From positions 6,783,001 through 6,847,000 of the forward strand of contig NC_092670.1 of NCBI RefSeq assembly GCF_964355755.1: a DNA stretch of 64,000 nucleotides, in the 5' to 3' direction. The notes under the pieces were generated by a model. That model was given only the letters and a program-made list of their open reading frames with translations, was not told where the DNA came from and ran no database searches. The position numbers were made by a program, and so were the translations under genes. This document shows positions 27,685 through 64,000 of the stretch, piece by piece. Origin of the DNA: Antedon mediterranea (taxonomy: Eukaryota; Echinodermata; Crinoidea; Comatulida; Antedonidae). The number at the start of each line of letters is the position of its first letter. Position 1 is the first letter of the stretch.

Positions 27685-30600
27685 GTGAGTATTTTTGTCC
27701 AAATTAGCTTTATAACTGACAGTTGTTTCGCAATGGTTTGTATTGATTGATAATTACAAATACTATAAACGTTTTAAGTAGTGTATCGTCACATGCTAAT
27801 GTACTATTAATAATGTACTAAAATCGAATGTTAATACCATGCTCATAAATATTTTCCACAGATTATTCTGAAAATAAGTTCTAACGCAAAGATTGGCAAT
27901 GTCAAAGTAATTTATTTTTGTATATCCGCTTATACGTTTAAATTTTACTTTAGCATTTTGTTTTTCCTTCACCAACACATAAATTGACAAGATGATACAA
28001 TGTTAAAAATGTAATTGTTAGGTCACATATATATTTTACATATTATAATATTATTATTAGGTAGGCCGAATAAAAAATAATTCGTCTTTGCGTATTCTAG
28101 GATATATACGATTTATGATCCTCGCAGCGGTAGTTATGTGATGCAATTTCAACCAATCACGTTCACGTATTTACATAGGCTATGTAATATATATAATTTA
28201 TATATTTCATTTATATTTATAATAATGTTGACAATAATTTGTTCTTGAGCTATGGAAAATGTTGTACTCTGTATTATTTTTGCGATATAAAATATGAAAT
28301 GAATAATTAATTAGTTGTTAGTGAAAAAAAGTTCTTAATTGTATTTTTTTCACAGTCACATTTGATAATTGTCCAGGAGATGAGACAATAAACAACACCG
28401 GGGCATTTCCATATGCATACACTATCCCAGTGATTACAGCAACCGTGAATTCAAGTGGTTTAGCTGCAGATGTCCAGATTACATCAACACCTGCATATTT
28501 TCCAGGTATTGTTGTAAACTTTGGAGTAAATTACGTTATTATTCTTCAATATACAGCGTTTGCCAATGGTGAAACGGGCGTTATATGTGAATTTTCTGTA
28601 ACATTTCTCGGTAAGTATCTCATAATGTTTGTCATATGCAGCAATGTCAATAAATAATAATAATAATATAATAAATCACCATCAACAAAATTATAATAGT
28701 CTTTGTCAGCAAATGATTGTGATAATTAGAAATAAGTATCATTTGTCATATGAGTATTTAGTAAATTATTTTTTCTAACAGTAACTTATTAATTTATCCT
28801 ATACCATTTTAAGTAAAATAATTCTAATATCCTAAATTAAAAGAGTTCAGTTCAGTTCAATAACGTTTATTCCATAATGGTAAACATTATAACAGTAAAA
28901 CAATATATAATACAAATCGTCCAATTTAACCCATTTCCCGAACACCGTTCAAGAAAATAAAATCATGTACCTTTAATAATTTCGAACCCTATCTGACTCA
29001 ATATTTAACAAATTAAAATATTATTGTATATATATAGTGTTTAGATAGTGAGTCGGATAGGGTTCGAAATTCGAAATTATTATAGCAGACTGTTATTATT
29101 TTGTTATTGAAGTTTGTCGAGCAGTCGAATGCCCAAATGACATTGCAGTAATGTAAATATGGTACAATTGCAGTGAATTTTCACTCTTATCTTGTAAAAT
29201 TAAAGAGTTATAAAGGATGAGCAAAGTACATCTAGGGAAAATTGCTTTTGCTATTTGTGTACATATAAAATTATTGTGACTGATTTTTCTAATTTTCTTG
29301 AATAAAGAATAAAAACACATGGGAATAGTGTTTTTCTTTGCCTTGTGACTCTAAATCCAAGATGGTCGCACACATCCAAATCGGTTGCCAAATTGATTTA
29401 AATGTTATTTTATACTTTAAATCTAATTACATAGATTTAGGCCTATTGATTTATTTAATTCAATATTATTCAAAAGATACTGGTGATCCCTACTACCCAG
29501 ATTGTCCCACTGAACCTTTAGTGTTTAATACAAGTGACTCTAATACGACTGAGACAACATGGAATGAACCAACACCTACAGATGCATCCTCTGGTATAAT
29601 ATCCGAGTCAGCGCAGACTAACCCAGCTGAAACATCACCGACTAACTTTCCCATAGGAGAGACTAATCTTTCATACACAGCTACTGATGGAAGTGGTAAC
29701 ATTGGATTTTGTATTATAACAGTTCATGTAATTGGTAGGTAAAATTTATTAAGATATTTGTTTTTAAAAGCTAAATTTTTATGTGGCATCATTTGATTTA
29801 ATTGCGTAATCCTCTTCGGATCCTTGCACACGTCATGTTGTTTTCACCGCGCCAGCGGTCTCTTTGTAGCGCGTTCCGTTCTGATATTAGTAGAGGTAGG
29901 CCGGTATGTCGCGGCCGGTATCATCTTTTAGTTGATCTTTCCATCTCTTTGGCGGACGCCCTCTTGGTCTTTTGTTTTTACATCTAGGTGTAAACAGTTG
30001 TAAAAGGAACTACTGTAGTTATTCTGACTTACCATCTAGTAAGCGCACACATATCGTTCGAAAAACCAATAATGATGTGTCCGTGTTAGGGTTTGAACAT
30101 CAGAAATGTATGTAAGTGATAATTATAGGACGTGTACACAAATCACACTCATTCTCAGGCAAAATGTTCATCTTAAGTGTATTTTGTTACAAAAATTGAA
30201 CAAAAAATGATGTAGAATCTGTCGGTCTAATTATATTAACTACATTCGTTATATCATCACTATTACAACTAGATTTGAACTCGTCACGGTGACGAGTTAG
30301 GCTATCGCGCAACCCATCGTAACATGCACATGTTTTTTATTAATTGCACTTTGCACAATTGCACTACAACAATTGTAACGAACAGCTGGAATGGATCAAA
30401 ATCGTTCAATAAGCGTCAACAGTTGACAGTATCTGAACTGTAAACGGTTTAGTTGACGGTTAGTTTTGATTTTACACCACGCATGTTTATTTTATTGTTA
30501 TAATATGATGACCTTTTCAAATTAAAAAAAAAGTTCATAAGTCTAAAAAGCAATTGTTTTAGTAATAGAATATTGTAAATTTGAAGAAATATTGATGACG

Positions 30601-33600
30601 TTTACGCAGTATGCGCTCTATTGAATATGATGAACTGTGTCGAAAGAGACAACATTCCTATATTTTACATTCGTGTGGCCATATGATGACGTCACAATCC
30701 CCGAGAGGGAAAAAGTTCTGAATGAATTCATATCTATAACATATCTGCTTAGATATTAAATTTAAAACATCGGGGGTCACCAGCCATTCCGGAAAGCTAT
30801 AATCGAATCAAAATAGGCATATTTTTGCACAAATTTGCTTAAAATTACAAATTGAAAAAGGCTGTTAGTTTTGAATTATTTATAGTCAATTTAAGAATTT
30901 CAGAAAATCGCGCGTAGTTACGCTGCGCAACCATATTTTCATTAAACCAAAACTTGTTGCACAACTACATATATACGTGCATCTGCTGGCCAAGTTACAA
31001 CATAACTGCTACGCCCTTTTTTAGATCTGCTACGGACAAAAAATGAGCAGAAAAATGACATTTTTGACAATAACAATAGGCTATCGTTCTACAGAGAGCA
31101 ATAGCGTAATTATTGATAGCGTGATTATTGATAGTCCACATTGTTTCTAATTGCAGAAAGTGATGATAAATCGGGTTTTGATTTTATACTAGTTGTACTT
31201 GAATCTTAACTACTGTACAATTTTCCATTACTGGTTTTGAGAAGTACATATGAAGAATCTAGTATTATGTTATTTCTTAACTCATATGGAGGCAACGTGA
31301 TTTTTAAAAACTTAATACATTTTACAATTCATATTTGCAAAATCTGATTACTTATGATTAATTAGTATTATTGATATACATTGCACTCCTAATTACCATA
31401 GATATCGGAGACCCTATTGTGACAGAGTATCCTAATGATACAACAATTGATACAGACTCTGGACAGCCAACAGCTTTATATAACTGGACAGCTCCCGTTG
31501 CTACAGACAATTCTGGTACAGTGGTCATCTTTTACAAAACTTATGGAGTGACCTTTAGCAGTCCATCTTACAACTTTCCCATTGGAGCTAGTGGGGTAAC
31601 AGTCAATGTGACAGACCTATCTGGAAACAGCGTTTCAGGGACGTTCACCGTCACTGTTAAAGGTATAAAACAACTTAGTATTTCTACTGCACAAACAAAA
31701 AATAAGAGATTGTTATTAATATTACCTATTCCTACCTTTTCCTAAATAATTGATCAGTTCACTTGAATTATATTTTGTAACAACAATCTTCTTTTTTTTT
31801 TGGCGTAAATAAACAAATTATCTGGAACTAAAACAAATAATCCAAATGCTCAATTAACCATGGAATACCCGATTCTGCTACTGTCAATAGGTATGTATCT
31901 GTATAACTATCAGCGTATGCTGTCTGCATAATGGTGTACTTTTAACGTACATATATTATAGAGGGCACTATATAGAGTAAATACAAACATGTACAGCGTT
32001 TGCCAACCGAAATGTTTGGTTAGTGGCAAAGGCTTTAACGTTGCACACTGGAGCCCTCGGTTCAAGGTCCACCTTGGGACAGTAGCAGAATCGGCTGGAA
32101 GTATAATATAACTGATTTAGTAGGGTCGATTAGCACTTTTTGTGTGCACTTTGTGACAAAAGCACTAAACTTGGCAGAAACATTCGTTAGGAACTAACAA
32201 TTCTAGAAGGGGTACCCAAAATTTAATTTAATGATATTTAATATATATTCTCACAGATTTCCACATCTTTATCGTTTCAAATTAATTAATTAAATTTCAG
32301 TATATCACCGGGCGGGTTAGAATTAATGTTCTTTGCCTGCTATATATATATATATATATAAATAAATGTTCGGTTCAATGTAACCGTCTAGAAAGTGCTC
32401 AATACGGTAAAGTAGAGCTAAAATATACGTTAAGTCTGGAAAAGAAGTAAAAACTACAGTTTGGTCTCTACAGGCTTGTTTCGTGAGTCGTGCAACTCAC
32501 TCATCAGGAGACTATAATGAGAAGAATCAATTACAACGCTGCTTATAAGCACATTTACTTGTAGAATTAGCATTTACAGGTGATATGTTTTGGAATGTCA
32601 GCTGTTATGTAACAATGCTTTCTTTCTGTGCCGGCAGGCGGACACAAGTTCGTTACGTTTGTTTAATGTCGATAATTCAGGGTGGCGGATGATAAATAAT
32701 TTCTCTTTGAGGCAGAGATTGCATTTTTTGTTTGCGCTACTATATGCTTTAGTAGATGTCAAGATGCGCCATGAGATTGTATAGTCTGTGTTATTGTCCT
32801 TGAGTGTCCAAATATGTTTACTGAGTTCAGTTGAGTTTCTAGAACGTGAATTACGGAATGATGAGGTGTGATTTCTGTATCGTGTTTTAAAATCATTTTC
32901 AGTAAGTCCGATATAAGTTTCCGAGGTGGATTTGTCTTTGCGTGTAACTGTGGCTTGGTATATTACAGATGATTGTAAGCAATTTCCGTTTAGCGGGCAT
33001 GTGTTTTTCTGTCGGCAGTTGCATGTTTTGTTTTCTTGCGTGTTTTCCACGGATGTTGTTTCGGGCTGGTTGAGTATTCTCTTGTTGTGACTGTCTATTA
33101 TCTGTTTCATATTGTTCATACAACTGTAGCTAATCTTGATAGTTTCTCGTACGAGCCGGTAACCCAGACAAGACAAAAAAAAACAGACAACGAAAAGACA
33201 TTCTGTGGTACAACCCACCGTTCAGCAAAAACGTCAGCACAAACATTGGACAGAAATTCCTATCCCTAGTAGACAAACATTTTCCAAAAGATAACAAACT
33301 AAGAAAAATCTTACCACTAGACCACAGAGCCATGTATGGTATTATCACAGATTTTCACCCACCAGATACATTCTCTCATACAACAGGTTGGTATGATGCT
33401 CGCCCTGTAAGCGAGAGGTTGCAGGTTCGAATCCAGCCAGAGACATTTTTTCATACAACTAAAAAATACGGAACTTTCGCCAATGAGCTATGCTCGACGC
33501 GATTATGAGATCATGTTCCAAATATGAGCACTGTTTCTATAATTTACAGTATGATTTATATATAATTTACACAGTGCTACGCAACATCATTGATTTACAT

Positions 33601-52600: not shown

Positions 52601-55600
52601 TGCTGTTGAGCGGAGCGAGTCAGGGCTAGGTACCGGCTCGGGATAATTATACCAGAATGCCAATAATAATTCAAAATTAACACAAATGGTACGCCATTTA
52701 TTTATATTCATGCAATGGGTATTCTAGTAGGTTAGTGGTGACACCCGAGTAAATTTTCAACACAAAATTAAGTGATTATGCAATAATTTATTTATTGTAA
52801 CTTAAATATTGCATTTTTTGGGGGAGGGGGTGGCCAGGAGCTTCTATAAAAAACTTTAACTGGCCAGTTTAGTTATAGTTTAGTAGCAGGCCTACTGTAC
52901 TGTGTTGCTGCTGGGCCTACCTAGCCTATGCCATGGGGTCTTGAGTGTAGCCTAGAAAATCCTCCAGACCTAGGTTAGTGTAGCCTTAGGCTGGAGCCTA
53001 AAGTAGCTAGCCTTCTGTACGAATATTATAACACACTGGTTTAAGTGGTAACATTCTAAAAATCCCGTTTCCTATATAAGCAGGAGACTTTTTCAATAGG
53101 ATGATCATAAAATGCATCATTTCTTTGTTTACCATGTTTGGTGAGGAAATCAAACAAATTTTTCTCCACGTCTGTACTCCATCCATGATTGAATATTGTT
53201 GTACACGTGTGACGTTGCCGTGTGTGAGTTTTGGGGATTCCCTCATCTGTAACCAGAGCATGATTGGTAAAAATACGTTCACGTGGTATAGTTTTTAAAG
53301 GGGGATTCTGGGTTTAAAATTGCTTTTAAATATCGTTTATTTATTAAATAAAAAATATTATAACAATATAGACATGTCAGAATGAAGAAGTAATAACGAG
53401 AAATTAAAAAAATTAAATTTCATATACATTTTAGGGTAAATTCATGAAAAGTCTGTTTTTCAGCAGCTTAGGGAAGCTCATTAATATTCATGAGATATTC
53501 ACAAAATCACGTCATCAGTGGATTCCAAACTCGCGACGTCAAGCTTGTACGTTGTGTTCTCTCTCCCCTGTCAAACGATGACCACCCGATTATTGTGAAA
53601 TACATTTTGTGTAGATTTTCTAAGCTAGGCCTAAAGTGTAATAATAACAGTAGTAGTATATTTATTTGACATTTAATGAAATAAAAAATTTAGTACAGAT
53701 TACGGAGTCATAAATTATACTATTTTTATACCTCGAATAGTACAGATCATATATCGGCATCACGTGCTAGGCTAGGCCTAGCCTAAATCATTTTATTCAT
53801 GGGTGAGAGCCATTTCTGACTAGGGATTCCATGCCACGATGGCTACGTTAAAACATTGGGGCCATCATGGGCCAAGCTAGCCTACTACTAAACTATTGGC
53901 CCATAAATAACAAAACTCAGTGGATTCCACACCCATCCTATCAACCAAACTCCTAAACAATCTAAACCTAAAACGTTCTACAAAAATCGGCTGTAAATAT
54001 TGAGGCAAAACAAGGTCCGATTTCCGTCCGCACGTATGGTGTCCCGATCGTCTAATAAGTAGGCCTAAAATAGGCCTAGTTTACTCTCCAAAAAAGCGGA
54101 TACTGCATCAAGCAAGTAGACCGGTAGTAGGAAGGAGACCTATCCGATCCGGTCCAGTTAAAAATTGAGCTAGCTAGTGTAGTAGACCCTATGCGAATTG
54201 ATACTACCAGGCCTTTTACTATAGGCTACACTTGTTAAAATTAGCAATACTTATGTTTACAAATATTCCAACTATCTCATTCGAGCTATATTATCTATAC
54301 CATTCCGGTAGGTCGAGTCGACCTTCAATCAATACTGTACATCGTTCATGTTGTGATTATAGACGGGGTATACTCTCGACCCGACCAGTTTGGTATTGTA
54401 TACTGTATCTGCTTATCACGTAACAATGCCAGGCATCGGGCAGAGAGAGCACGTGTATCGTCGTCTCGCTCTCCTCGCTCAGCAGGAAGCGAGCAGGAAT
54501 GTATACGTTACGCTTCATTGATTTTGAAGTCTTTCCCTAAGTCAGTGCGAAAATCGGCAAACGTAGAGTGCAAACATATCTAATTTTTCACTGTTTTGAT
54601 GGATTTTCATAGAAAATTGACTTTATAAATGGGAAGACCGACTAAAATTACATCAGATAAGTATAATTTTACAAAAGTAATTGATATGATTAATGATAAC
54701 GAGTCGTCGGAAGATTGACCATTTCACGAATTTCCTATTCTGTAACCACAGAGTGATTTTGCCGTAGCTGCACTTGTAATTTGGCCTCATTTCACAGCCT
54801 TCGTTCTGCTTCACTGGGCGCTTATATAAATTGAAACTTTTACCGTTTAAGAGACAAACAAATATATTTTACATTTTTTACTATTCATTTTAAACCCGGA
54901 ACCCTCCTTTTAGACGTTGCGGATAATTTGAACGTGTAACGTTCCCCCGACCAAATCACTCACGCGGTGTATATTAAAATAAAGTACCAAATTAAAACAG
55001 TAATTTCTCAAAAATTTCCCAACACAATTATGGAGAACTCATAATAATGAACAATATCAGAAACTTAATTTTTACACACTTATACCTGAATAATTTGTCA
55101 ATTCGCCTTTTTTAACATGGTATCATTTTAATTTGTTTTTGTATGTACTAAATTAAGATTTTACAATTATAAATTGTAATATGATTTTAGCGTTAGTTAT
55201 CCTTGTTTATTCCTGTTGTATAATTAAATAGATAATGAGGATCCAGTCTTGGTTTGTCCGCCTAATATTACAACTACTACAGCAGATGGTTTAGATCAAG
55301 CAGTCAATGTCACCTGGACTGATCCAATAGTAATTGACAATTCTGATGAAGATATAACACCAACGTCCAAGAACAACCCTGGAAATAATGAATTTGATAT
55401 TGGTAGAACTGATGTGTTATATGATGCAGTTGACAGTTCAGGCAATGCAGGAACATGTACCTTTACAGTTACTGTTACTGGTAAGCATAGATGGCTTTCA
55501 TTCTTTCCTCCTCTAACGTATTTTAATTAATTAATATAGAATTGTTTGCATAAATGCTTTTTTTACCCGAACTTTTTATCTAGTATTATTACTATTTTAT

Positions 55601-58600
55601 TATAAGTTATAATTACTTCATGTTTTAGATCCAGAAGCTCCAGATATTATAGATTGTCCAATTGATATAATTGTTAACACAACAACTGGTGAGGCATTTG
55701 CCATCAATGTTACATGGATGGAACCGACAGCTACTGATAACTCTGGAGAGACTCCTGTACCAGTAGCAGACTACACTTCTGGTGAAAATATGTTTGCAAT
55801 TGGCAACACAACAGTTCAGTACAATGTATCAGATTCAGCTGGTAACTTTAATGATAGCTGCAGTTTTGGTATCACTGTTGAAGGTAAGACAACTGTACTT
55901 CGTTGGAGGAAATTAAAATTGAGCTACAGTAATGTGGTAATATCAAATGTAATTTATTTATTTATGTTATTTATGTCGTGAATAGATAATGAAAGTCCAA
56001 TAATTGCCTGCCCAACAAATGTCACTTCAAACAATTACATCGGAGAAGGGTATGGACTATTAAATGTCAGCACAGATATAGGAAGTCCAAATGCCACTGT
56101 CACCTGGGATCCTCCGGTGACAAGTGACAATAGTGGTGGACTTGTGACTGTAATGTCATCACCTTTCGAGTCTGGTGACATGATACCATATGGTACTCAC
56201 ACAATCACTTTTACAGCAACTGATCCTTATGGCAATAGCGACACCTGTGTATTTGATATCGAAGTTGAAGGTAAAGTAAGAATCTCTTATTCTGAATTTT
56301 CACCAATATTTAAAAGCACTATAATAGTAATAAGTACCATTTATTATTTTATCGATATTCTTTGCATAATGGTAATTATGTTTTTTAACGGCTTGTTTAT
56401 TATTTGTTTATACGGTAAGTTTGACAAAAATAATACACTGTACTGTAAGAATTAAAATGTTATTTCGTAACTATGAATCAAGTCTTATGTGGAAATAAGA
56501 AAATTAATTGTTCCACTCTACCATTACAAAATGTAATAGGATTTTAGCGTTATTCATTCTTGTTTCTTCCTTTTATATTATTAGATAATGAGGATCCAGT
56601 CTTGGTTTGTCCACTAAATATTATAACTACTACAGCAGAGGGTTCAGATCAAGTAGCCAATGTCAACTGGACTGATCCAATAGTAATTGACAATTCTAAT
56701 GAAGATATAACACCAACGTCCAAGTACAATCCTGGACTTAATGAATTTGATATTGGTAGAACTGATGTTATATATGATGCAGTTGATAGTTCAGGCAATG
56801 CAGGAACATGTACATTTACAGTTACTGTTACTGGTAATCATAGATGGCTTTCACTCTTTCCTCTGTAGTATTTAAATTAATTAGTATAGAAATGTTTGCA
56901 CAAATTCATTTTACCCTGATCTTCTTTCCTGAGTATTATTACTGTTATTTATTATAAGTTATAATTACCTCATGTTTTAGATCCAGAAGCTCCAGATATT
57001 ATAGATTGTCCAATGGATATAATTGTTAATACAACAACTGGTGAGGCATTTGTCATCAATGTTACATGGATGAAACCGACAGCTACTGAAAACTCTGGAG
57101 AGACTCCTGTACCAGTAGCAGACTACACTTCTGGTGATAATATGTTTGCAATTGGCAACACAACAGTTCAGTACAATGTCTCAGATTCAGCTGGTAACTT
57201 TAATGATAGCTGCAGTTTTGGTATCACTGTTGAAGGTAAGACTGTTTGCTATAGGTGGAAATGAAATTTGAGTTATAGTTTTAATAATGTGGTTTTGTCA
57301 AATTCTATTTTTTTGTATTGCTGTTATTTTTTTTTATAGATAATGAAAGTCCAATGATTGACTGCCCGACAAATGTCACTTCAAACAATTACATCGGAGA
57401 AGGTTATGGATCAGTAGATGTCAGCACAGATATAGGAAGTCAAAATGCCACTGTTACCTGGGATCCTCCAGTGACAAGTGACAATAATGGTGGACCTGTG
57501 ACTGTAATGTCATCATCTTTCGAGTCTGGTGACATGATACCAATTGGTACTCACACAATCACTTTTACAGCAACTGATCCTTATGGCAATATTGACACCT
57601 GTGACTTTGGCCTCAATGTTGAAGGTAAATGAAAACCTCTTTTTAAATAGCATAGATGGCTTTCATTCTTTCCTCTGGAGTATTTAAATTAATTAATATA
57701 GAAATGTTTGCATAAATGCATTTTTACCCTGATCTTCGTTTCTGAGTATTATTACTGTTTTACTAGCACATTCATTATTTTTAAACCTCACCCTAGTGGG
57801 AAGTAACAGAGTCAAAATCGTAGCCCTTTTAAACACATTGTTAAATATGACATTGTAATGTATTACATGGATGAGACAAAAATGTTTAGCTGAATAAACT
57901 GTAATTACAAGCAAACAAAGGTCAAATTTTTGTGGATTTTTACTTTTATGTTAAACCAAAACAACGAAAAGGAATAAAATTACCTTCGTGACGTTTCGCC
58001 GACAATCTGTCAGCTGCTTCAGACTAATGCCTGGGTTGGAATTGTCTGGTTTTTTGTAAATGACGCTGAACAGCGCCACCAGCCGTCTGGTTGGTATTGA
58101 CGGTAGAGCGTCTCCGCTGGCCCCCCTCCTGCTTCAACTTTTTCCAGCAAACTATCATATGTATGTGGGAGGTCATACCCACCAATGTCTCTGTTGATAT
58201 TATGTGGTCTTTTTCTTATGCAGATAGATTCTTTTATCTTTCTTTTGTCTGTCTGTGCTTCTTTTTCAATAACTCTCGCATTCCAATTTGGAATATGGTC
58301 ATTCCCTATAGCGTAGTCAGTTATGGCTGACTTATGTAAAACCTGGGACGAAGAATTTCTATTTGCACGTGTTCTAACTACTTGGTTGTGTGTTGATACC
58401 TCTTTTTTATGTTCCCCAATTCTTGTATTCAGTGCCCTTCCGGTCTCTCCTATATATACTTTCTCACAGTTTAGACAGTTCACTTCGTAAATAACCCCGC
58501 ACATGTCTTCCGTTTTTATTCTATCTTTTGGGTGGACCAGTCCATTCTTTAATTTATTACTTGGAATGAAGAAAGTTAGTTAGTGAATAGAGCAGACACA

Positions 58601-61600
58601 ATTGTTAGTGAAGAGAAAGATAAAAAACATGAGTTGGAACACATTAGAAAAGCATTGAAAATTTGTAACTATCCAAAATGGTCAGTAGACAGAGTCGTAA
58701 ACAAGAGGAAAGAACAAAAGTCAAAAAACAAACCAGAAGAACGCCAAAGAAAGGAAATGGAGAAGATGAAAGCTCACATAGGTATCCCATACATACACGG
58801 AATTTCTGAAAAGATTCGACGCACTTTTGCTAAGCACAAAGTGAACACTTTCTACATTCCAAGTAATAAATTAAAGAATGGACTGGTCCACCCAAAAGAT
58901 AGAATAAAAACGGAAGACATGTGTGGGGTTATATACGAAGTGAACTGTCTAAACTGTGAGAAAGTATATATAGGAGAGACCGGAAGGGCACTGAATACAA
59001 GAATTGGGGAACATAAAAAAGACGTATCAACACACAACCAAGTAGTTAGAACACGTGCAAATAGAAATTCTTCGTCCCAGGTTTTACATAAGTCAGCCAT
59101 AACTGACCACGCTATAGGGAATGACCATATTCCAAATTGGAATGCGAGAGTTATTGAAAAAGAAGCACAGACAGACAAAAGAAAGATAAAAGAATCTATC
59201 TGCATAAGAAAAAGACCACATAATATCAACAGAGACATTGGTGGGTATGACCTCCCACATACATATGATAGTTTGCTGGAAAAAGTTGAAGCAGGAGGGG
59301 GCCAGCGGAGACGCTCTACCGTCAATACCAACCAGACGGCTGGTGGCGCTGTTCAGCGTCACTTACAAAAAACCAGACCATTCCAACCCAGGCATTAGTC
59401 TGAAGCAGCTGACAGATTGTCGGCGAAACGTCACGAAGGTAATTTTATTCCTTTTCGTTGTTTTGGTTTAACATAAAAGTAAAAATCCACAAAAATATTA
59501 TTTGGAACCAGAGGAATTTATTCAATGTAAAGGTCAAATTGTATATCAGAAAATGGGGTCATTGTTAAATTTAAACGTGTATTTAATGTTTTCTTTTTAC
59601 AAGTAAAATCATTACCTTTGTTCTTGTTTTTTCTACGTAAGCAAATAGCTTTGGAAATAATAAAATGGCATATTAAAAATCTGATTGTATTAGTCTTTAC
59701 TTATTTTTGGGTGACAATACATCTTTAAATCGATTCTACCTATGAATTTCACTGGGTGATCGGTTAAAATACGAAATATGCTATAGTTTAATTAACTATA
59801 ATGACTAAAACAGTAGAACGAATTTTAAATTATGCTTAGAAACGATATGATCTTGATATTTAGACATTTTTATAATAGATAATCAGGATCCAGGTTTGTT
59901 TTGTCCACCTGCTATTGCAACTACAACAGATGGCTCAGATAAATCAGTGAATGTCATCTGGACTGATCCAATAGTAATTGACAATTCTGGTGAAGATATA
60001 ACACCAACGTCCAAGTACAATCCTGGGAATAATGAATTTGTTATTGGAAGCACTGATGTCATATATGATGCGGTTGATAGTTCAGGAAACTCAGCAACAT
60101 GTACATTTACAATTACTGTTACTGGTGGTGAGTATAGAAATGCTTATAGAATCATGTTAACATGTATTAGCATAGCAGCATGACATGGCAATGTCTCCGT
60201 TCAATTCAACAAGCGTGAATTGTTGAAAAAGACTGTATTGTCACTGTAAACAGTTATTTTTTATTGTATGGCATTCACGTTTATTCATTTGATTGAATAT
60301 GATGACTTTTTCAAAAATAAAAAAATATAAATCCATATTTCTGAAAGAGAAATTGTTTGAATAATAACATATTGAAAATTGGAAGAAAAGTGATAACGTT
60401 TACGCGATATGTGTCGAAAGAGATACAATTTTTAAAAATTCAGATGGCCATATATGACATTATAAAATAATGACAGCCTAAATTTTACATGAATCTATAT
60501 CTACAACTCATTCGCTTTTAAAATAAGTCTTAAAAAATAAGGGTCACCAGCTATGCTGAAGAGTATATTTATATAATCAATTTGCATACATTATACGCCT
60601 TTAAAACGCACGGTTTTTAAAGCTAGACATGTACATGTGTCATTATTTTAGATTTATAATTCATAAATGAAATAAAAGGAATTTATCATAAAACGTATAC
60701 AAAATAATAATCAAGATACAACTAATAAGTTAAAAAATCAAAGAAACTGTCGACAATTTTGATTTCTTGCATTCTACAAAAATGATCGTTGTAATAATTA
60801 TATATATTTTTTCAAGGCAATAGCATGAACCAAGTACAGGGTTATCTGATTGCAGTAATAATCGTTCTTGTTATAATAATTATGGTGATGTCTCCAACTT
60901 TTTTCTTTTATTGCAGGTATTTTTCTGTTTTACATATTTATTCCTATCTAGCTTGACATTTTTTAAAGTGTAATACATTAGGCCTAACAGATTTACAAAA
61001 TCGAGCTATTCTTAAAAATGAATTTGAATAAAATATTCAATTTAATTATTCTATTAAAATATGCAGTTATTTGTTTAAATGCATTTTATTCAACAGAAGA
61101 TATATTTTTACATTGTTTAGAATAATAACGTGATCAGTAAAGAACTTCCCGTGGCCAAAATTCTCAAAAGCGCGTTAATTAACACCATTAGATACCACTT
61201 TTCATTAGGTAGAGTTAATTCTAAATAACCAAACAAATAAGTGCTACTATCAATCCTAACCAGCAGTAAATGGCAATAAATCATTCAGGCAGCTACAGGC
61301 ATTAAATATGTTGTTAGACATAATATGCTTCAAGTAACCATTGAAATAATTATCTTAATTCATAGTTGCCTTATAAGTCTCTGTTATTACATTTATCTTA
61401 GGTCCCACTACAAGAATAACAATACTATTGTCAATAGAGTGGATGGTAATATCTTAGACATGAACATGACTGTGACTAACGACATGTACACGCCAACAAC
61501 AAATCAACCGGCAAACGTAGTATATGAGGCGAGCCTATCAACAATTGGCACTGGCAATTTTGCAGCTGAGCCAACTCTGGCAGTATTACCAGAAAGTGTT

Positions 61601-61660
61601 AATTCTGAATATCAGGATCATACATATTTATCAATAGAATCATGTAAACCCTTACAATGA
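27627..61660 (+). CDS. Type I membrane protein with ten HYR-type modules, about 1005 aa
   Basis: Exons: 27627-27684, 28356-28610, 29477-29734, 31402-31662, 55232-55480, 55629-55883, 55986-56270, 56585-56833, 56981-57235, 57340-57624, 59879-60127, 60817-60916, 61402-61660. Phases agree throughout and the sum is a whole number of codons. Order: signal peptide, ten HYR-like modules, one TM segment, tail of about 85 aa. HYR is an Ig-like extracellular fold found in adhesion and complement-related proteins and expanded in echinoderms, so a surface recognition or adhesion role is likely; the ligand is unknown. An exon might be missed in the 23.6-kb repeat-filled intron. The short tail lacks any kinase or GPCR part. 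Confidence 0.8.
28356..28610 (+). CDS. Gene 2 exon 2: divergent HYR-like module
   Basis: Phase 1-1, 255 nt, acceptor TTTTTTTCACAG, donor GTAAGT. It has the DNCPGDE opening and the late CEFSVTF strand of HYR modules but lacks the usual W-x-P and DNSG core, so it is a diverged first module. Confidence 0.65.
28845..29340 (-). mobile_element. LINE 3' end fragment (CR1/L2-like)
   Basis: On the minus strand it ends with ATAAACGTTATTGAACTGAA, the short-repeat tail typical of CR1-like elements. It also holds the inverted repeat TTCGAACCCTATCTGACTCA (28979) / TGAGTCGGATAGGGTTCGAA (about 29050). No coding part left. Confidence 0.4.
29477..29734 (+). CDS. Gene 2 exon 3: HYR module
   Basis: Phase 1-1, 258 nt. 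Shows [44 protein letters not shown] and CIITVHV, the HYR order (opening Cys-Pro, W-x-x-P, G-x-T-x-x-x-Y-x-A-x-D-x-S-G-N, closing C-x-x-x-V-x-V). The acceptor polypyrimidine tract is weak. Confidence 0.8.
29810..29985 (-). pseudogene. LINE reverse transcriptase C-terminal remnant
   Basis: The minus strand reads [18 protein letters not shown] followed by stops, the arginine-rich R-G-R-P-x-x-R-W motif found at the C-terminus of many LINE polyproteins. Short and decayed. Confidence 0.5.
30235..30330 (-). repeat. tRNA-like SINE head (tentative)
   Basis: The minus strand carries GAGTTCAAATC as a box B-like word and a preceding box A-like stretch, with CTCGTCACCGTGACGAG as a hairpin. No full cloverleaf. 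Confidence 0.3.
30370..30790. repeat. Intron repeat, copy 1 (matches 60190-60560)
   Basis: Shared words in order include GATGACGTTTACGC / GATAACGTTTACGC, GTGTCGAAAGAGA, ATGGCCATAT and GGGTCACCAGC. Similarity is partial, so it is either an old dispersed element or a trace of the intron duplication. 30791-31401 shows nothing further. Confidence 0.55.
31402..31662 (+). CDS. Gene 2 exon 4: HYR module
   Basis: Phase 1-1, 261 nt, acceptor TTACCATAG. Shows [42 protein letters not shown] and GTFTVTVK. The usual disulfide Cys residues are absent here. Confidence 0.78.
31858..32100 (+). repeat. Small foldback with tRNA-like SINE portion
   Basis: CCGATTCTGCTACTGTC (31869) and GACAGTAGCAGAATCGG (32079) are inverted. 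Between them, near 32020-32090, box A-like GTTAGTGGCAAAGG and box B-like GGTTCAAGGTCC suggest a tRNA-derived SINE. Confidence 0.45.
32258..32347 (+). repeat. SINE tail fragment
   Basis: TCTCACAGATTTCCACATCT, AATTAATTAATTAAATTTCA and TTAGAATTAATGTTCTTTGC match the tails of the SINE copies at about 34105-34215 and 34465-34573. The tRNA head is missing; a TA run follows. Confidence 0.75.
32464..32512 (-). ncRNA. Type I hammerhead self-cleaving ribozyme of a Penelope-like element
   Basis: Read on the minus strand: stem I GTCTC, core CTGATGA, stem II GTGAGT-(TGCACG)-ACTCAC, core GAAA, stem III CA-(AGCC)-TG, cleavage dinucleotide TA, stem I GAGAC. Stems I and II pair perfectly and every conserved core base is present. 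Penelope-like elements are known to carry type I hammerheads with a very short stem III, and a GIY-YIG fragment of such an element on the same strand ends about 85 nt upstream. Cleavage would fall after the A of TA (32469). Confidence 0.85.
32598..33150 (-). pseudogene. Penelope-like element, GIY-YIG endonuclease fragment
   Basis: The minus frame gives [15 protein letters not shown] followed by VIYQATV and [17 protein letters not shown], then helices with KHIWTLKD and a basic C-terminus. The C-x-C-x5-C linker before a GIY-YIG nuclease is characteristic of Penelope-like retroelements. The reverse transcriptase is missing; the in-frame extension above about 33150 is not part of the protein, because the neighbouring piece is inverted. 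Confidence 0.75.
33190..33312 (+). pseudogene. Penelope-like fragment in inverted orientation
   Basis: The + frame reads [20 protein letters not shown] and then [15 protein letters not shown]. In Penelope-like proteins this stretch lies just before the KISYSCMNN segment found on the minus strand next door, so the two pieces were once contiguous and are now head-to-head. It ends abruptly at tRNA-like sequence. Confidence 0.6.
33386..33444 (+). pseudogene. tRNA-Thr(TGT)-like, 5'-truncated copy
   Basis: Identical over the anticodon, variable and T arms to 33742-33812 except one base. The 5' part (acceptor and D arm) is present next door at 33312-33385 but inverted. Confidence 0.5.
33742..33812 (+). 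tRNA. tRNA-Thr(TGT)-like gene or SINE head
   Basis: Acceptor GGCTCTG/CAGAGAC (one mismatch), anticodon stem CTCGC/GCGAG with loop CCTGTAA (anticodon TGT), T arm GCAGG-TTCGAAT-CCAGC (one mismatch), run of T after it. Position 33 is C rather than U, and a second broken copy sits 350 bp away, so a tRNA-derived repeat is more likely than a working gene. Confidence 0.5.
33921..33962. repeat. TA microsatellite
   Basis: Alternating TA interrupted by one TGTA. It precedes the first SINE copy. Confidence 0.95.
33966..34215 (+). mobile_element. tRNA-derived SINE, copy 1
   Basis: About 65 bp of leader (CGTACCACGCCGAGAATG), an intact tRNA-like head (34030-34101), then the tail with AATTAATTAATTAAATTTCA and TTAGAATTAATGTTCTTTGC, ending in TA repeats. 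The same order recurs at 34333-34573, and the tail alone at 32258-32347. Confidence 0.7.
34030..34101 (+). tRNA. tRNA-like head, anticodon ATC
   Basis: Acceptor GCCCCAG/TTGGGGC pairs fully, with G as discriminator. Anticodon stem CTGC/GCAG with loop ATATCAA (anticodon ATC). T arm CCGAG-TTCGAGT-CTCGG is perfect, and TTTTT follows as a Pol III terminator. The fold is complete, but ATC is an unusual anticodon and the sequence is part of a repeated SINE unit. Confidence 0.55.
34333..34573 (+). mobile_element. tRNA-derived SINE, copy 2
   Basis: Same leader, head and tail as copy 1. The tRNA head (34396-34461) has lost 6 bp of the T arm including box B, so it is probably transcriptionally dead. 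Confidence 0.7.
34571..34653. repeat. TA microsatellite
   Basis: About 80 bp of TA with a single TACATA break, directly after SINE copy 2. Confidence 0.95.
34777..34820 (-). ncRNA. Hammerhead-like motif, probably decayed
   Basis: The minus strand has CTGATGA, stem II AGGGC-(TAGTGTT)-GCCC, GAAA, stem III GC-(TCT)-GC and TA. The core matches a hammerhead, but the bases that would close stem I do not pair (A opposite A next to the core). It is likely a Penelope-like tail; activity doubtful. Confidence 0.4.
34857..34925. repeat. Inverted partner of 33541-33605
   Basis: TCAATGATGTTGCGTAGCAC and the following AT-rich bases are the reverse complement of sequence at 33541-33605, bracketing the SINE cluster. 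34930-35680 beyond it shows no gene. Confidence 0.7.
35685..36203 (-). pseudogene. Retrotransposon Gag-like fragment
   Basis: The minus frame 35967-36203 reads [17 protein letters not shown] and [20 protein letters not shown], the helical pattern of LTR-retrotransposon Gag (Y-A-x-x-L-R-x-L then F-x-x-G-L). A second frame (35685-35918) may continue it after a frameshift. No pol nearby. 36204-36780 shows nothing further. Confidence 0.45.
36786..36860. repeat. Short dispersed repeat (also at 52697-52770)
   Basis: CGCAATGGGTATGCTAGT and GTTAGTG...AGT...TTTCAACTCAATTTTAT match the 52697 copy (ATGCAATGGGTATTCTAGT) in the same orientation. Origin unknown. Confidence 0.55.
36965..37135 (-). mobile_element. 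tRNA-derived SINE
   Basis: The minus strand has box A-like GTGGCTTGGTGGTTATGATG, GGCTACCAATCTAAGGG, and box B GGGTTCAAGTCC, then a T run. It abuts the 3' end of the CR1-like LINE. Confidence 0.6.
37412..40456 (-). CDS. LINE ORF2: endonuclease and reverse transcriptase, 1014 aa
   Basis: An EEP endonuclease lies at about residues 85-310, with [37 protein letters not shown] and GKSDHV. The reverse transcriptase at about 480-790 has [52 protein letters not shown] and the catalytic FADD. The thumb/C-terminal region has [13 protein letters not shown] and [10 protein letters not shown]. Length and motifs fit CR1/L2-group ORF2. No stops or shifts, so it may encode active enzyme for target-primed reverse transcription. 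It overlaps ORF1 by 35 nt in another frame, suggesting reinitiation or frameshifting. Confidence 0.9.
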   Translation of the reverse strand: MIVFEALVHHHKEFSNIESFCFEENYFNLERKVKQKFIRKKKCSEDKKKFKTFIEGLKQKKSRLRNDDIVDFHEKSLKFLYTNADALRNKMGELRDIINQRKPDVVAITEVNNKTCTDILEVELSIKGYTKFDSGRSGRGVVIFAKEELNASICNELLNLNFVEALWIKIEINKRQQLLCGCIYRSPNSIDENNQALLSAINKASELNGISDFIMLGDFNFPEIDWISWSTNKNETHKSNRFIECLRDNFLCQCIQQPTRFRDGQTPNILDLVITMDETKISEIEIGPPLGKSDHVTILFSYDCVTKIQEKMEYKLNFNKGDYIKMKELITEVDYQFENTNVEEACEALNKSRNAVQICIPKSNIKKENKPIWMTGDVQRKIKIKHNAWKKFTRSRQQKDYDSYKKARNIVTGEKRAAKIALERKICNEVKTNPKSFWKYVREKTKTTQSIGLVKDGKGNMADDNQHKAEIFNAFFTSVFTNEDLESLPEVTPRVDVDDHLESIEVTKEEVLTCLQQMNSNKSAGPDDVHPRVLKELKEIVATPLTSIYNKSLSTGQLPECWKCANVVPIFKKGDKTEVGNYRPVSLTSVVCKLLESIVRDKIIQFLNDRNLIIKAQHGFRKGRSCVTQLLEVMEEWTKLLDAGENFDAVYLDFSKAFDSIPHQRLITKLEAYGIKGNLLRWIHQFLTGRRQRVRVAAAFSEWSTVKSGVPQGSVLGPLLFIIFINDLPDAVKSKVWMFADDTKMFNVVYENRNDTVQNDLKALSDWSKRWQLKFNINKCKVIHYGNSNPQMQFTMPTEEGDEDLPNANTEKDLGVTFDQSLKFSLHTNEAVNKANRLIGLVRRSFAYMDKDMFLPLYKSIIRPHLEYASCIWYPLLKGDLDKLERVQRRATKIVKKLRDKSYDHRLKELGLPSLNYRRRRADIIQVFKIIKGLDDIEAETFFDFREDSRTRGHQFKLRKPRARLKIRSHSFSCRIVNTWNNLYHTTVQAENINAFKDQLNKDRAMGDKFCYQF
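40422..41462 (-). CDS. LINE ORF1: PHD-like zinc finger and coiled-coil RNA-binding protein, 346 aa
   Basis: The N-terminus is Arg/Pro-rich. A PHD-like finger follows at about residues 54-108 ([24 protein letters not shown]), then a long helical coiled-coil stretch and an RRM-like part opening with [15 protein letters not shown]1-type ORF1 proteins bind element RNA and often carry a PHD finger. The start is taken at the first Met (41462), and the frame is intact. Confidence 0.8.
   Translation of the reverse strand: MNLTTMAEGRPTTRGKARDRKDMELEPRFRPADARPRPSQPEQEATPQSVEGACAICKTIIGEKDKGVNCDICKRCFCLKCSKLSNKMYALLSDSEIKNVLWSCDTCLVQLPLLKKIAEINELQENMNARLNIVEKTQKDQALRASLTNKNIEVIEKIQVDTRNNLIELKESYDLMDGKIKESVQEGIEEYRDRESRKLNIVIENLPESDNQSSQQRLKEDRVAIEKLFNECLEIEGVEITEVIRLGKYTEDGCRMARVSLDSLKSKREVMVNAKKLRSTDHAFLKNIYINPDRSKKERQMNYELRQELRSRKDNGEIDLVIRRGKIMKRDSELAFDRFRGPSSSS
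41571..42535. other. Leader region before the BEL/Pao frames
   Basis: No gene. A 5' LTR of the BEL/Pao element is expected here, but without a second copy its edges cannot be set. A short ATT/GTT run lies at about 42356-42388. Confidence 0.3.
42536..43675 (+). pseudogene. BEL/Pao Gag-like region
   Basis: 379 codons: a coiled, Ala/Lys-rich N-terminus, then a DUF1759-like capsid part with [14 protein letters not shown] and [12 protein letters not shown]. It ends in a stop where the following part continues in another frame, so the Gag-Pol joint is broken by an indel in the overlap. Confidence 0.8.
43602..45900 (+). pseudogene. BEL/Pao zinc knuckle, protease and reverse transcriptase
   Basis: Cys/His fingers at about 43740-43960 ([29 protein letters not shown]), then a DUF1758-type protease with VLDEQSNRS and, further on, ILLGRD. 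RT starts near 44890 and has [19 protein letters not shown] and the catalytic YVDDG. Two in-frame stops (45033, 45258) interrupt the RT; both are single-codon lesions. Confidence 0.8.
45914..47705 (+). pseudogene. BEL/Pao RNase H and integrase
   Basis: RNase H region with [11 protein letters not shown] and [12 protein letters not shown]. Integrase has an HHCC finger ([11 protein letters not shown]... with CIQCRK in the source frame), the first catalytic Asp in [10 protein letters not shown], the second in SDCGTNF and Glu in GGTWERM. A TGA at 47324 breaks it between the first and second Asp. The end is lost at the LINE junction. Confidence 0.78.
48003..48908 (-). pseudogene. Decayed LINE: reverse transcriptase
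   Basis: Motifs [58 protein letters not shown] and the catalytic YMDD. Open for 301 codons, then shifted; the frame 47712-48010 continues with [13 protein letters not shown]. Confidence 0.85.
49098..50438 (-). pseudogene. Decayed LINE: leader and EEP endonuclease
   Basis: The leader has [15 protein letters not shown]. The endonuclease has [26 protein letters not shown] and [10 protein letters not shown] (49816-50181), then, after a frameshift, GDFNRMRDN and GLSDHNVIV (49098-49805). Confidence 0.8.
50575..50812. repeat. C-rich degenerate array (left arm)
   Basis: About a dozen degenerate units of 15-18 bp around GGACAACTACCCCCTTA. Its complement forms the array at 51945-52310, so the two are inverted arms. 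The G strand has repeated runs of 4-6 G and could form G-quadruplexes. Confidence 0.9.
50887..51318. mobile_element. Foldback element carrying a 22-bp repeat array
   Basis: Inverted ends CGGGTGTTTCGAAAC and GTTTCGAAACACCCG, each followed by GAGACCCGAGACCAGAGACC or its near-complement. TTTTTAA is duplicated on both sides (50880-50886, 51319-51325). The middle (about 50950-51265) holds about 14 units of GGTCTCCCTTTTCGTATATT. No coding capacity. Confidence 0.75.
51326..51944. other. Spacer between the foldback element and the right G-rich arm
   Basis: AT-rich, no ORF of note, a short ATT microsatellite near 51719. Confidence 0.5.
51945..52310. repeat. G-rich degenerate array (right arm)
   Basis: Units around GGGGGTAGTTGTCCTAA, the inverse of the left array at 50575-50812. 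Together they bracket the foldback element, suggesting one larger inverted-repeat structure of about 1.7 kb. Confidence 0.9.
52311..53296. other. No supported gene; dispersed repeat at 52697-52770
   Basis: A minus frame near 53040-53210 contains [20 protein letters not shown], which looks coding but matches nothing I know. The block 52697-52770 repeats 36786-36860. AGGCCTA words cluster at 52880-52990. Confidence 0.35.
53297..54911. mobile_element. TIR element without coding capacity
   Basis: Left AAAGGGGGATTCTGGGTTTA and right TAAACCCGGAACCCTCCTTT are inverted with a few mismatches and extend inward by AAAT. The target duplication is not clear (TTAA-like remnants at the left edge). The interior is AT-rich with AGGCCTA words and no conserved frame. 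54912-55231 is plain intron. Confidence 0.6.
55232..55480 (+). CDS. Gene 2 exon 5: HYR module, type A
   Basis: Phase 1-1, 249 nt. [44 protein letters not shown] and CTFTVTVTG carry all HYR landmarks including both Cys. First member of the A-B-C cassette. Confidence 0.88.
55629..55883 (+). CDS. Gene 2 exon 6: HYR module, type B
   Basis: Phase 1-1, 255 nt. [46 protein letters not shown] and CSFGITVEG. Acceptor CATGTTTTAG is identical in the second B exon. Confidence 0.88.
55986..56270 (+). CDS. Gene 2 exon 7: HYR module, type C
   Basis: Phase 1-1, 285 nt, longer by an insert around NNYIGEGYG. Also has [34 protein letters not shown] and CVFDIEVEG. Confidence 0.88.
56585..56833 (+). CDS. Gene 2 exon 8: HYR module, type A (second copy)
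   Basis: Nearly identical in length and sequence to exon 5 ([31 protein letters not shown]). The introns before and after also match those around exon 5, showing duplication of the cassette with its introns. Confidence 0.88.
56981..57235 (+). CDS. Gene 2 exon 9: HYR module, type B (second copy)
   Basis: 255 nt like exon 6, with only a few substitutions ([10 protein letters not shown] instead of [10 protein letters not shown]). Confidence 0.88.
57340..57624 (+). CDS. Gene 2 exon 10: HYR module, type C (second copy)
   Basis: 285 nt like exon 7. Ends at GTAAAT. Shortly after it the intron changes to sequence that normally follows an A exon. Confidence 0.87.
57640..57775 (+). other. Relic of an A-type intron after exon 10
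   Basis: CATAGATGGCTTTCATTCTT, AATATAGAAATGTTTGCATA and GAGTATTATTACTG match the introns after exons 5 and 8, yet no A exon precedes them here. This is a trace of a third cassette lost by recombination. Confidence 0.7.
58019..58570 (-). pseudogene. Penelope-like GIY-YIG domain, left arm
   Basis: The minus frame has [20 protein letters not shown] followed by [14 protein letters not shown], the GIY-YIG core with Arg and His. It lacks the RT part and is almost identical to the right arm, with a changed frame near the C-terminal end. Confidence 0.8.
58583..59398 (+). pseudogene. Penelope-like RT C-terminus plus GIY-YIG endonuclease, right arm
   Basis: 271 codons: the first part ([18 protein letters not shown]) is the region after the RT palm, then [20 protein letters not shown], the C-x2-C linker VNCLNCEK, and the GIY-YIG nuclease [19 protein letters not shown]. 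The upstream RT with its catalytic motif is missing, so it is 5'-truncated, although the remaining frame is open. Confidence 0.82.
59879..60127 (+). CDS. Gene 2 exon 11: HYR module, type A (third copy)
   Basis: Same class as exons 5 and 8 ([43 protein letters not shown]) but more diverged, and the opening reads [11 protein letters not shown]. The donor is taken as GTGAGT at 60128; GTGGTG three bases earlier would also keep the frame. Confidence 0.83.
60190..60560. repeat. Intron repeat, copy 2 (matches 30370-30790)
   Basis: Same ordered words as copy 1 and same orientation. Lies in the intron between the last HYR exon and the TM exon. Confidence 0.55.
60817..60916 (+). CDS. Gene 2 exon 12: transmembrane segment
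   Basis: Phase 1 to 2, 100 nt. [20 protein letters not shown] followed by FFFYC is one strongly hydrophobic helix, then a split Arg codon as stop-transfer. Confidence 0.8.
61402..61660 (+). CDS. Gene 2 exon 13: cytoplasmic tail
   Basis: Begins with the last base of an Arg codon and reads [15 protein letters not shown]. It then carries Tyr in [21 protein letters not shown] and HTYLSI, ending IESCKPLQ and TGA. Acidic and polar residues around the Tyr suggest phosphotyrosine docking sites; none is a strict ITIM. Confidence 0.78.
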
Positions 61661-61748: not shown

Positions 61749-62239
61749 GCAGAAACGTCTTTCCATTGTTCAATTAATAACGTGGTGACAATGCCTATGG
61801 GGCGACACAATTTATTACATAATGTAAGTCAAATTGTCTACCTAGATGTTCATAAGAATTTAGATTCCATAATTCAGTTACATGGAAAGGCATAACGAAG
61901 ATGGGTGTGTTTAAAACTACTGCAACAGTAGCCTACATGTTAGATCAATCGAAGGCTTTATTTAACACAATCTTTGGTTAGCTTTTTACTTAGGCCTGCA
62001 TAGATTAAAGGTGATAATTTCAATAGCACAATTAATCTTGTCAACATGTTATATATGTGGACATAAATACAAGTGTTAACAATTAGGTAAAATGGTACGA
62101 AAATTAACAAAAAGTGGTGGTAGGCTAGAGGGTTAGGTTTAGTACATTTAAGAAGTAGATCAGCTATCTTGCAATTCTTTATAATAGAAAATAATTAAGG
62201 TAGGTCTAATGAATTATTTATGATTTCTGCCCACGTTCG

Positions 62240-62480
62240 TCCTGGAAAAAAATACGCTTTCAGTTAACGTAAGTAATCATCTAAAACATGGACCTCTCCA
62301 ATTAGGAACCAAAGAAGTTTAGATTTTACGAACTATTCAAATAGAAACTTAGTCTAGGTTCTGGACCGAAATTAGTAAAAAGATAAATAGTTTGGCACAT
62401 ATGGCGTTTCATAGCAACCAACTTTCTTTTTGCCAAATCTTTACATGTATCTAATGTTCTTTAGATAATTTATAGCCGCT
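62240..62480 (+). pseudogene. Relic of the adhesion-GPCR C-terminal tail exon
   Basis: 62305-62346 (GAACCAAAGAAGTTTAGATT onward) aligns with 8423-8465 of the gene 1 last exon with about eight mismatches in 43 bases. After an insertion of some 70 bp, TTTTGCCAAATCTTTACATG aligns with the last codons of gene 1, and the 3' flanks then continue to match. Frame is lost. No TM exons could be found between 61661 and 62240. Confidence 0.7.
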
Positions 62481-63204
62481 CTTTTACTCCTTCTTAAATT
62501 ACTTTGGGTACATGTAATTTAAGCCTTCCTTCCCTCTCCATAATAATTTGAATTATATTAAATAGCCTTAATTAACAATTCCTTCTTTCCGCTTAAACTA
62601 TCCATTTTACGGAAAATTATTAATTGATTTGTATATATAGACAATATGTTATTTTTGTTACCTTATGGTATATTTTATTGTAAATATAATAAAAACTGTT
62701 TTACTTTTTTAATAATAACATTATATTTACTATTGTAATAGTGAATCAATTGGGATATAAATAAAGTAATTATGTACGTATACAATTTAAATTAATATTT
62801 TTTTTATAATATATAATATTTTAGGTAATTTATAATAACAACCTCTAAGCGTTTAACATTATTACTCCGGTCACATAATATAAATATGGGCCGACTTACA
62901 TACAATTAACAAGAACATTATTTTGCCAATAATGTTTACGTTACATTGGTAAGATTTTTATAATAAGATTATTATAATATTGTAAACAAATTATTGATCG
63001 TTTTGTGTTTACAGTTAAATGGCTATAAGATAATATGATATATTAAGACAGCGATCAACATACATACATGTAATCACTAACAATACTGCATAACAATGTA
63101 CTATATGGCAATAGTAATAACATTATTGAATTTAAATGAATCTATTTCATTTGTTTTTACAAAAAAGGTACGGTACTATGCAATAGATGTTTTACCCCTT
63201 ATAA

Positions 63205-64000
63205 AATACACCATACATCTTATCCCACGCATACCGTTGGTTTGAAATCACCTCCCCTCTCATAGTACGTCATTAAATATCTCAAGTAATTTAACTTCAG
63301 TGTATTTCTTGTTTTGAGAATTACATACACGGATCGTATGCATTTTTTAGCACTAGGCTGTTTAGCTGTTGCATCGAACGTTGTTTTTGTGTTGTTTTGT
63401 AAATAATTATTATTCGATTTATGCTGGTACCGTTTCGTACTTTTGTTAATTTTGTAACCGTTTACGTTGCTGTTTTTGTGCTGTTTGATATTTTCGATTT
63501 TGTAGTCATTTTGTACTCGTTCGTTACACCTGAAATAAAATTAGCGCCAATCGTGGCATTGTATGTAAATGATCACGTATTAAGCCAGCTACACTGAACG
63601 TGAAACATGTCACCGTAAGTATGTCAAAGTACGCAGATTACAGACACACGAAGGGTGTTACATCTTCTTTTTTTCGTATTGGAAACGAAACCTTATAAGG
63701 ATTTTACATTTACTGAAGGTGGGAAATAATGATTTATTTGTGCAATGTGATGTTGCAATCAATCAATCGTAGGGTGACGATTAGGGGATTAGGGAGACAT
63801 TTCCAGTGTCCAAATCGTACTAGACTTGCATGTCATGTTTAATTTTATATCTCATAAGTCGCCTACAACTAATAAACCAGTTCAGCGGTGAGCGAATTAA
63901 GACAGTGGACTTCATCGTCATCAAACCGGAAAGGGATCAAGGTCCACTCGCTTGCTTCATGGTTCTGGTAGTAAAGTTTTCTCGGATAAGGACAAAACCA
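63205..64000. repeat. Duplicated flank block, copy 2 (matches 21580-22345)
   Basis: Same blocks as copy 1, including TACGTCATTAAATATCT, TTTATGCTGGTACCGTTTCG, GATCACGTATTAAGCCAGC and the tRNA-like CCAGTTCAGCGGTGAGCG. It follows the gene 2 flank without the 12-kb insertion and runs off the window, so another paralogous gene may lie to the right. Confidence 0.8.

Follow-up and report, generated by a model that had tools for sequence, protein, structure and literature searches.

A HYR receptor gene of the crinoid Antedon mediterranea that probably exchanged a seven-transmembrane end for a single-pass tyrosine tail

Introduction

How does a gene that lies in an array of adhesion G-protein-coupled receptor (GPCR) genes come to end in a single transmembrane (TM) helix and a tyrosine-bearing tail, with what looks like the tail of a seven-transmembrane (7TM) receptor lying behind its stop codon? 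The question is raised by gene 2 of the window, the whole stretch of 64,000 nucleotides analysed here (C1:6783001-6847000), which belongs to a genome of 354 Mb in 18 contigs in Antedon mediterranea. A first, sequence-only reading had proposed that the ancestor of gene 2 ended in a 7TM receptor and was cut short by other exons. The features of the window are collected in Table 1, and the evidence on this proposal is considered below from the neighbouring receptor genes to the relic and its surroundings.

Table 1. Features of genes 1 and 2 and of the relic, in positions of the window
Feature	Position	Strand	Evidence and remarks
Gene 1 Ig, GAIN region, GPS and 7tm_2 exons (reference copy)	59..8522	+	Pfam Ig, GPS, 7tm_2
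Gene 1 3' end and flank homologous to the relic	8394..9395	+	Alignment, profile search
Intergenic block behind gene 1, homologous to 63246-64459	21602..22789	+	Alignment
Gene 2 signal-peptide exon region	27571..27712	+	ORF 27570-27704; limits uncertain
Gene 2 N-terminal divergent HYR-like exon	28325..28610 (ends approximate)	+	8 matches including itself
Gene 2 HYR exons 1-2	29435..31700 (approximate)	+	Inside ORFs 29329-29739 and 31362-31742; Pfam HYR
Gene 2 HYR exons 3-8	55228..57629 (ORF limits)	+	Pfam HYR in 6 of 6 ORFs
Gene 2 last HYR exon (HYR9), cluster type, phase 1-1	59879..60127 (ends by splice consensus)	+	Pfam HYR
Gene 2 transmembrane exon, C6-type	60817..60916	+	78-83% DNA identity to C6 and C3 TM exons; phase-1 acceptor
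Gene 2 cytoplasmic tyrosine-tail exon with stop, C6-type	61402..61660	+	Homology to C6 tails
Dispersed repeat before the relic, outside it	62126..62258	+	At least 39 other places, 89-92% (40 of 258 candidates scored)
Relic of 7TM last coding exon, piece 1	62278..62349	+	nhmmer 62278-62354, E 8.7e-8
Dispersed repeat inserted in the relic	62350..62413	-	At least 39 other places (40 of 1074 candidates scored)
Relic of 7TM last coding exon, piece 2	62411..62464	+	nhmmer E 4.5e-6; 80-83% over 46 nt
Relic of 7TM gene 3' flank	62459..63225	+	Collinear with 8570-9320 and with genes A and E
Intergenic block common to 7TM gene ends	63246..64000 (to 64459 past the window)	+	79% to C1:6804602 and 7122334

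The receptor array and its reference gene

Gene 1, which carries HYR, EGF and Ig modules, belongs to the adhesion GPCRs. This class name, which we take to apply to genes with GAIN/GPS plus 7tm_2 domains, is given on the basis of Pfam matches to GPS (E 3.4e-15) and 7tm_2 (E 1.1e-12 and 5.5e-11); the gene 1 ORFs tested between Ig and GPS are without a Pfam match. HYR modules had been predicted upstream of the Ig domain, outside the window, and they are present there: all ten ORFs tested in the 9 kb to the left of the window (picked by eye from 28 listed) are HYR by Pfam, and the HYR exons are followed by an EGF exon (L011:8627-8746).

Paralogues of the final 7TM exon of gene 1 occur on its own strand of C1 at 6599, 6663, 6925, 7121, 7189, 7245 and 7298 kb, and more on C1 (39 Mb), C2, C3, C4 and C8. 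The genes of the C1 array are referred to as A, B, C (gene 1), D, E, F, G and H. Gene E is a paralogue 95% identical to gene 1, and in B, D, F and G the match to this exon contains one or two stops, which are probably marks of shorter tails. The neighbours of gene 2 are a tandem array of adhesion-GPCR genes with HYR, EGF, Ig, GPS and 7tm_2 modules. Starts and ends on C1 do not pair one to one, since ten start blocks (about 370 bp or more) stand against eight 7TM last exons of the array plus the relic. HYR exons as such are plentiful genome-wide, with at least 150 above the cut-off (150 of 1417 candidates scored, all 150 listed passing). Between gene 1 and gene 2, the window also contains a tandem array with a period of about 190 bp (16988-19857).

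Start and ectodomain of gene 2

The start of gene 2 is of the same type as that of its neighbours: 27267-27712 matches start blocks at 11 places over about 370 bp or more, itself included, ten of them on C1 and one on C8. The N-terminal exon that follows belongs to no Pfam family at E 0.001, and its matches, itself included, lie on C1 (seven, at 6.69, 6.81, 7.21, 7.22, 14.28, 14.36 and 34.0 Mb) and on C3 (one). Nine HYR ORFs of gene 2 pass Pfam in total. Among the 40 of 96 candidates that were scored, the counterparts of exons 3-8 are 75-95% identical and fall into two regions of C1 (6.5-7.2 and 14.3-14.4 Mb), apart from two on C8 and one on C3; the last HYR exon shares 77.7% identity with a HYR exon of gene 1. 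Gene 2 thus has the start block, the HYR exons and the 3' end of an array member, the last of these fitting A, gene 1 and E. Taken alone, the HYR and N-terminal exons are no proof of 7TM ancestry, because genes at C1:14.3 Mb without a 7TM match carry them too. Compared with relatives, the HYR, TM and tail exons of gene 2 gave dN/dS values of 0.35-0.63 in six pairs, which on such short exons is weakly compatible with constraint on a working gene.

Some observations concern the surroundings of these exons. The HYR cluster at C1:14.3-14.4 Mb (L034, C1:14440801-14449800) gave no 7TM match, and its ORFs, read by eye, look like HYR, EGF and SEA-type modules, reminiscent of egg bindin receptor-like proteins. 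The large intron of gene 2 between HYR2 and HYR3 contains several retroelement-like ORFs on both strands (37412-50187, up to 1021 aa, by eye). Additionally, an inverted pair of 651 bp with 98.8% identity lies in a gene 2 intron (57926-58576 and 59496-58847); its ORF presumably resembles a GIY-YIG endonuclease, and the pair suggests a recent mobile element.

The transmembrane and tyrosine-tail exons

The two exons that now end the protein have their homologues elsewhere in the genome. The TM exon has five on C6 and one on C3, and the tail exon shows 37-39% amino acid identity to three of the four C6 tail exons compared (E 5e-8 to 6e-7); the fourth (L001) gave no direct match to the gene 2 tail at E 0.05 and matches the other C6 tails. 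A phase-2 intron separates TM and tail in gene 2, as it does in the two C6 genes inspected. An alignment of TM plus tail in five rows, the last of which is an assumed pairing of two loci, has 29 invariant columns that include tyrosines 36, 74 and 108 (gene 2 query numbering). A new TM plus tyrosine tail had been held to end the protein earlier; the pair is indeed new to gene 2, but the exons themselves are not, given that C6 has homologues divided by the same phase-2 intron and C3 a homologous TM exon. Gene 2 therefore has the TM exon, tail exon and phase-2 intron of a C6-type receptor, whereas its last HYR exon matches none of the C6 loci compared at the DNA level and is not the C6-type HYR exon that could be expected before the TM. 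In the one C6 gene that was read upstream, HYR and EGF exons precede the TM exon.

On C1, gene 2 is the sole clear copy of the pair, a weak match at C1:38844458 (E 0.09) containing a stop. An origin of the pair in gene 2, followed by export to C6 and C3, is quite improbable: six TM homologues (five on C6, one on C3) and four C6 tails lie off C1, and gene 2 sits on a gene that seemingly ended otherwise before. On the other hand, the gene 2 tail is the most divergent of those compared, so that the direction is not fixed by distance alone. Arrival of the pair in gene 2 from elsewhere, which is the preferred direction, is unlikely to have been by retroposition, since the intron between TM and tail is at the same place. 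The introns and flanks of the pair show no match to the C6 loci compared beyond the exons and splice borders, and for this reason the donor and the breakpoints are untraceable.

In the loci searched, no tail exon was found near the C6 TM exons at 309 and 440 kb or near the C3 TM exon. The latter (L013:7565-7680, C3:38047565-38047680) is 94% identical in amino acids to a C6 TM exon, has no tail match in its locus and lies about 4 kb from exons for a C8 protein domain and an EGF-like module (by eye) on the same strand.

ITIM and ITAM motifs are defined by [SIVL]xYxx[ILV] or paired YxxL/I. The gene 2 tail has five tyrosines, read by eye from the translation (SHYKNN, DMYTPT, VVYEAS, SEYQDH and HTYLSI); by eye, none of the five fits an ITIM, and one fits YxxI, so the tail shows neither a canonical ITIM nor a canonical ITAM. 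These tyrosines may nevertheless be phosphorylated.

A receptor-tail relic behind the stop codon

Downstream of the gene 2 stop, 62278-62464 aligns with the last 42 or so codons of the final 7TM exon of gene 1. When 8300-9395 was compared with 61660-63200, the local score was 156, where 200 dinucleotide shuffles reached at most 62 and the reverse strand 51; the alignment of the gene 1 3' end and flank in the same order and orientation, noticed in the sequence-only reading, is therefore real. The segment 62278-63245 scored 185 against gene E, and chance similarity is excluded because this is far above the maxima of 82 (500 shuffles) and 49 (49 control segments of the window). The relic had been placed at 62240-62480; homology in that span is real, but its coding part starts at 62278 rather than at 62240, and it runs far past 62480. 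A profile search (nhmmer with the last 7TM exon from five genes) recovered the coding part in two pieces, which are short, with 77 and 54 nt by profile and 43 and 46 nt in direct alignment, where piece 1 is 84-88% identical to genes 1, E and A.

The two pieces are separated by a dispersed repeat of 64 bp (62350-62413), copies of which lie in the window at 24138-24201 and 11504-11546 in the opposite orientation. The other dispersed repeat, at 62126-62258, had no further copy among the loci examined; it is possible that it had a role in the rearrangement.

Among the array genes, the relic best matches the ends of A, gene 1 and E, and that of H over 57 nt only; against the ends of B, D, F and G the scores were no better than background. 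Genome-wide, with a query that started at 62414 and left out the inserted repeat, the flank is low-copy and was found in the 3' flanks of gene A and gene 1 and at one 61-bp place on C5, counts that are not exhaustive in a DNA search that skips very common words. It is barely credible that the flank similarity reflects a dispersed repeat or AT-rich chance: the region is AT-rich and has the two true dispersed repeats, but outside these the flank is low-copy and tied to the 7TM family, the C5 piece being the exception and the sole copy of 62414-63225 found away from 7TM gene ends, and the shuffles and the 49 control segments stayed far below the observed score.

Homology continues into an intergenic block. 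The stretch 63246-64459 is 80% identical to the block behind gene 1 over 1269 columns, and 63246-64000 has long matches genome-wide behind gene 1, gene A, gene E and a C8 copy of gene 1; its other matches are short and fall on the last 130 bp or so, apart from one 48-bp piece behind gene A. In genes A and E the 7TM end is followed by flank, block and next start block, and gene 1 has the same arrangement with an insertion: about 12 kb lie between the gene 1 flank (9395) and block (21602), which adjoin in gene E. From the stop, or its equivalent, to the next start block the distance is 2795 bp for the relic, 3123 bp for A, 3287 bp for E and 18748 bp for gene 1 (with the insertion). As order and spacing fit the neighbours, the relic sits where a 7TM end is expected. 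The proposal that the gene 2 ancestor ended in a 7TM receptor with this tail is thus upheld, relic, flank, block and spacing matching A, E and, given the insertion of about 12 kb, gene 1; judged from these comparisons, it very probably did.

The relic could also be what is left of a separate, otherwise deleted 7TM gene, with gene 2 single-pass from the start and placed upstream of it. The TM and tail exons do come from another family, the interval from gene 2 to the relic has no EGF, Ig or other exon of a 7TM gene, and the HYR and N-terminal exon types also occur in the C1:14.3 Mb genes. This is nevertheless unlikely, given that the start block of gene 2 is of the array type, that the spacing to the next start fits A and E, and that from the end of gene 1 to the start of gene D there is one full-length start block (6810267) for one end relic. 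Two partial start-block pieces lie just before 6810267.

Alternatively, gene 2 and gene D (7TM at C1:6924838) would be one transcription unit, with TM and tail as an alternative last exon. HYR exons run on between gene 2 and the gene D 7TM, and an N-terminal exon of the 28325 type was not found between 6811612 and 7211067. However, signal-peptide matches for gene D lie directly behind the relic at 6847934 and 6848655, the second of them in a start-type block (6848254-6848741). A single gene spanning both is weakened by this start of gene D's own, and we consider it highly improbable.

The age of the change is a separate matter. The last 7TM exons of gene 1 and gene A (L003) differ by a dS of 0.06, yet their flanks are just 71% identical, which suggests gene conversion confined to the exon; the loss of the 7TM part in gene 2 is for this reason not datable from the relic.

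The missing GAIN/7TM half

If the relic is the former end of gene 2, the remainder of the GAIN/7TM half has to be accounted for. A test for further 7TM-exon relics upstream of the relic had been proposed; no convincing 7TM, GAIN, GPS, Ig, EGF or HYR remnant was found from the last HYR exon to the relic. When the ORFs of nine gene 1 exons were searched against 60101-63300 with tblastn, the tail alone fell below E 0.05 (residues 174-189, E 0.009), and the remaining matches were at E 0.2-1. The profile search by nhmmer gave the two tail pieces, three matches with negative scores and no other 7TM relic. No GPS, GAIN or 7tm_2 domain was found in 25001-64000 at E 0.01, and the present gene 2 lacks in these searches the GPS/GAIN plus 7tm_2 of an adhesion GPCR. 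A 14-residue match to TM1-3 (E 0.011; 60127-62300 searched with seven EGF, Ig, HYR, GPS and TM1-3 queries) was taken as chance.

A decay control indicated what these searches could have detected. It covered the two 7TM exons only, with 30 simulations per level at E 0.001. At 80, 75, 70 and 65% identity, nhmmer recovered TM5-7 in 30 of 30 cases throughout and tblastn in 30, 30, 30 and 27; for TM1-3, tblastn recovered 30, 30, 29 and 25 of 30. Decayed 7TM exons being detectable at 65-80% identity, the 7TM part would have been removed and not merely decayed, unless decay went beyond that level.

A copy of gene 1 on C8 (L012 and L010, C8:18586634-18593898) is 91-95% identical to it up to the equivalent of 3592 and resumes 2.8 kb later at the equivalent of 9010, with no N between. 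Equivalents of 3593-9009 of the window (GPS, 7TM and tail) are absent from it, and the gap gave no match to 7TM or to the gene 2 TM and tail exons. This copy appears to be a second loss of the 7TM half, so that in the gene 1-type family such a loss would have occurred at least twice, with different breakpoints.

A probable origin of gene 2

Gene 2 is probably a chimera: an adhesion GPCR of the array in which a captured single-pass tail took the place of the transducing half. What the DNA shows directly is the set of homologies with its order, the exon phases and the absence of detectable 7TM exons. The segment from the last HYR exon to the last 42 or so codons of the 7TM tail would have been removed, and two exons of single-pass type, one for the TM helix and one for a tail of about 85 residues with tyrosines, would close the frame through a phase-1 intron. 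The leftover tail codons, the 3' flank and the intergenic block would then have become an untranslated relic past the new stop, split by the dispersed repeat. The TM/tail pair would have entered the array, not left it, and removal and capture may have been one event or near in time, either order being possible. Expression and signalling of gene 2 are inferred. The product would be a type I receptor with a HYR ectodomain of the array on a tyrosine-phosphorylatable tail in place of the GAIN/7TM module.

Whether the TM/tail pair is a shuffling cassette, used in the C6 HYR/EGF receptors, present as the TM exon on C3 and responsible in gene 2 for turning a GPCR into a phosphotyrosine receptor, is more tentative, and the balance tips slightly against it. 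If true, a G-protein receptor would have become a phosphotyrosine receptor with an ectodomain of the same kind.

Comparison with known systems

Chimeric genes and exon shuffling are well known. Two groups of genes within this genome offer the nearest comparisons. With the HYR/EGF/Ig adhesion GPCRs of the array, gene 2 shares the start block, the HYR exons, the remaining tail codons, the 3' flank and the intergenic block, but it is without a detectable EGF, Ig, GAIN, GPS or 7TM exon. With the HYR/EGF genes of C6, which are presumably single-pass, it shares the TM exon, the tail exon, the phase-2 intron and HYR before the TM, whereas the C6 loci compared carry an EGF exon and exons without a Pfam match.

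In the literature consulted, HYR does not occur in the main text of PMC12716839, and neither HYR nor hyalin in the portion of PMC13197933 that was searched. The putative egg receptor EBR1_5 of sea urchin has a TM, a SEA domain and seven HYR (PMC5521101). EBR1_5 and gene 2 thus have in common a HYR array with a transmembrane domain; on the other hand, EBR1_5 has a SEA domain, and the passage of PMC5521101 that describes it gives no link to a 7TM gene.

A discarded GPCR end behind a new stop, with the neighbouring genes as references, would in our general judgement be unusually direct evidence of the conversion of one receptor class into another. Paired activating and inhibitory immune receptors likewise combine ectodomains of the same kind with differing tails, both partners being single-pass. 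Gene 2 differs from them in that a canonical ITIM or ITAM is absent and that it was a 7TM end which would have been replaced, and it leads to a testable arrangement in which HYR ectodomains of one kind would signal by way of G proteins in one gene and by tyrosine phosphorylation in the gene that follows.
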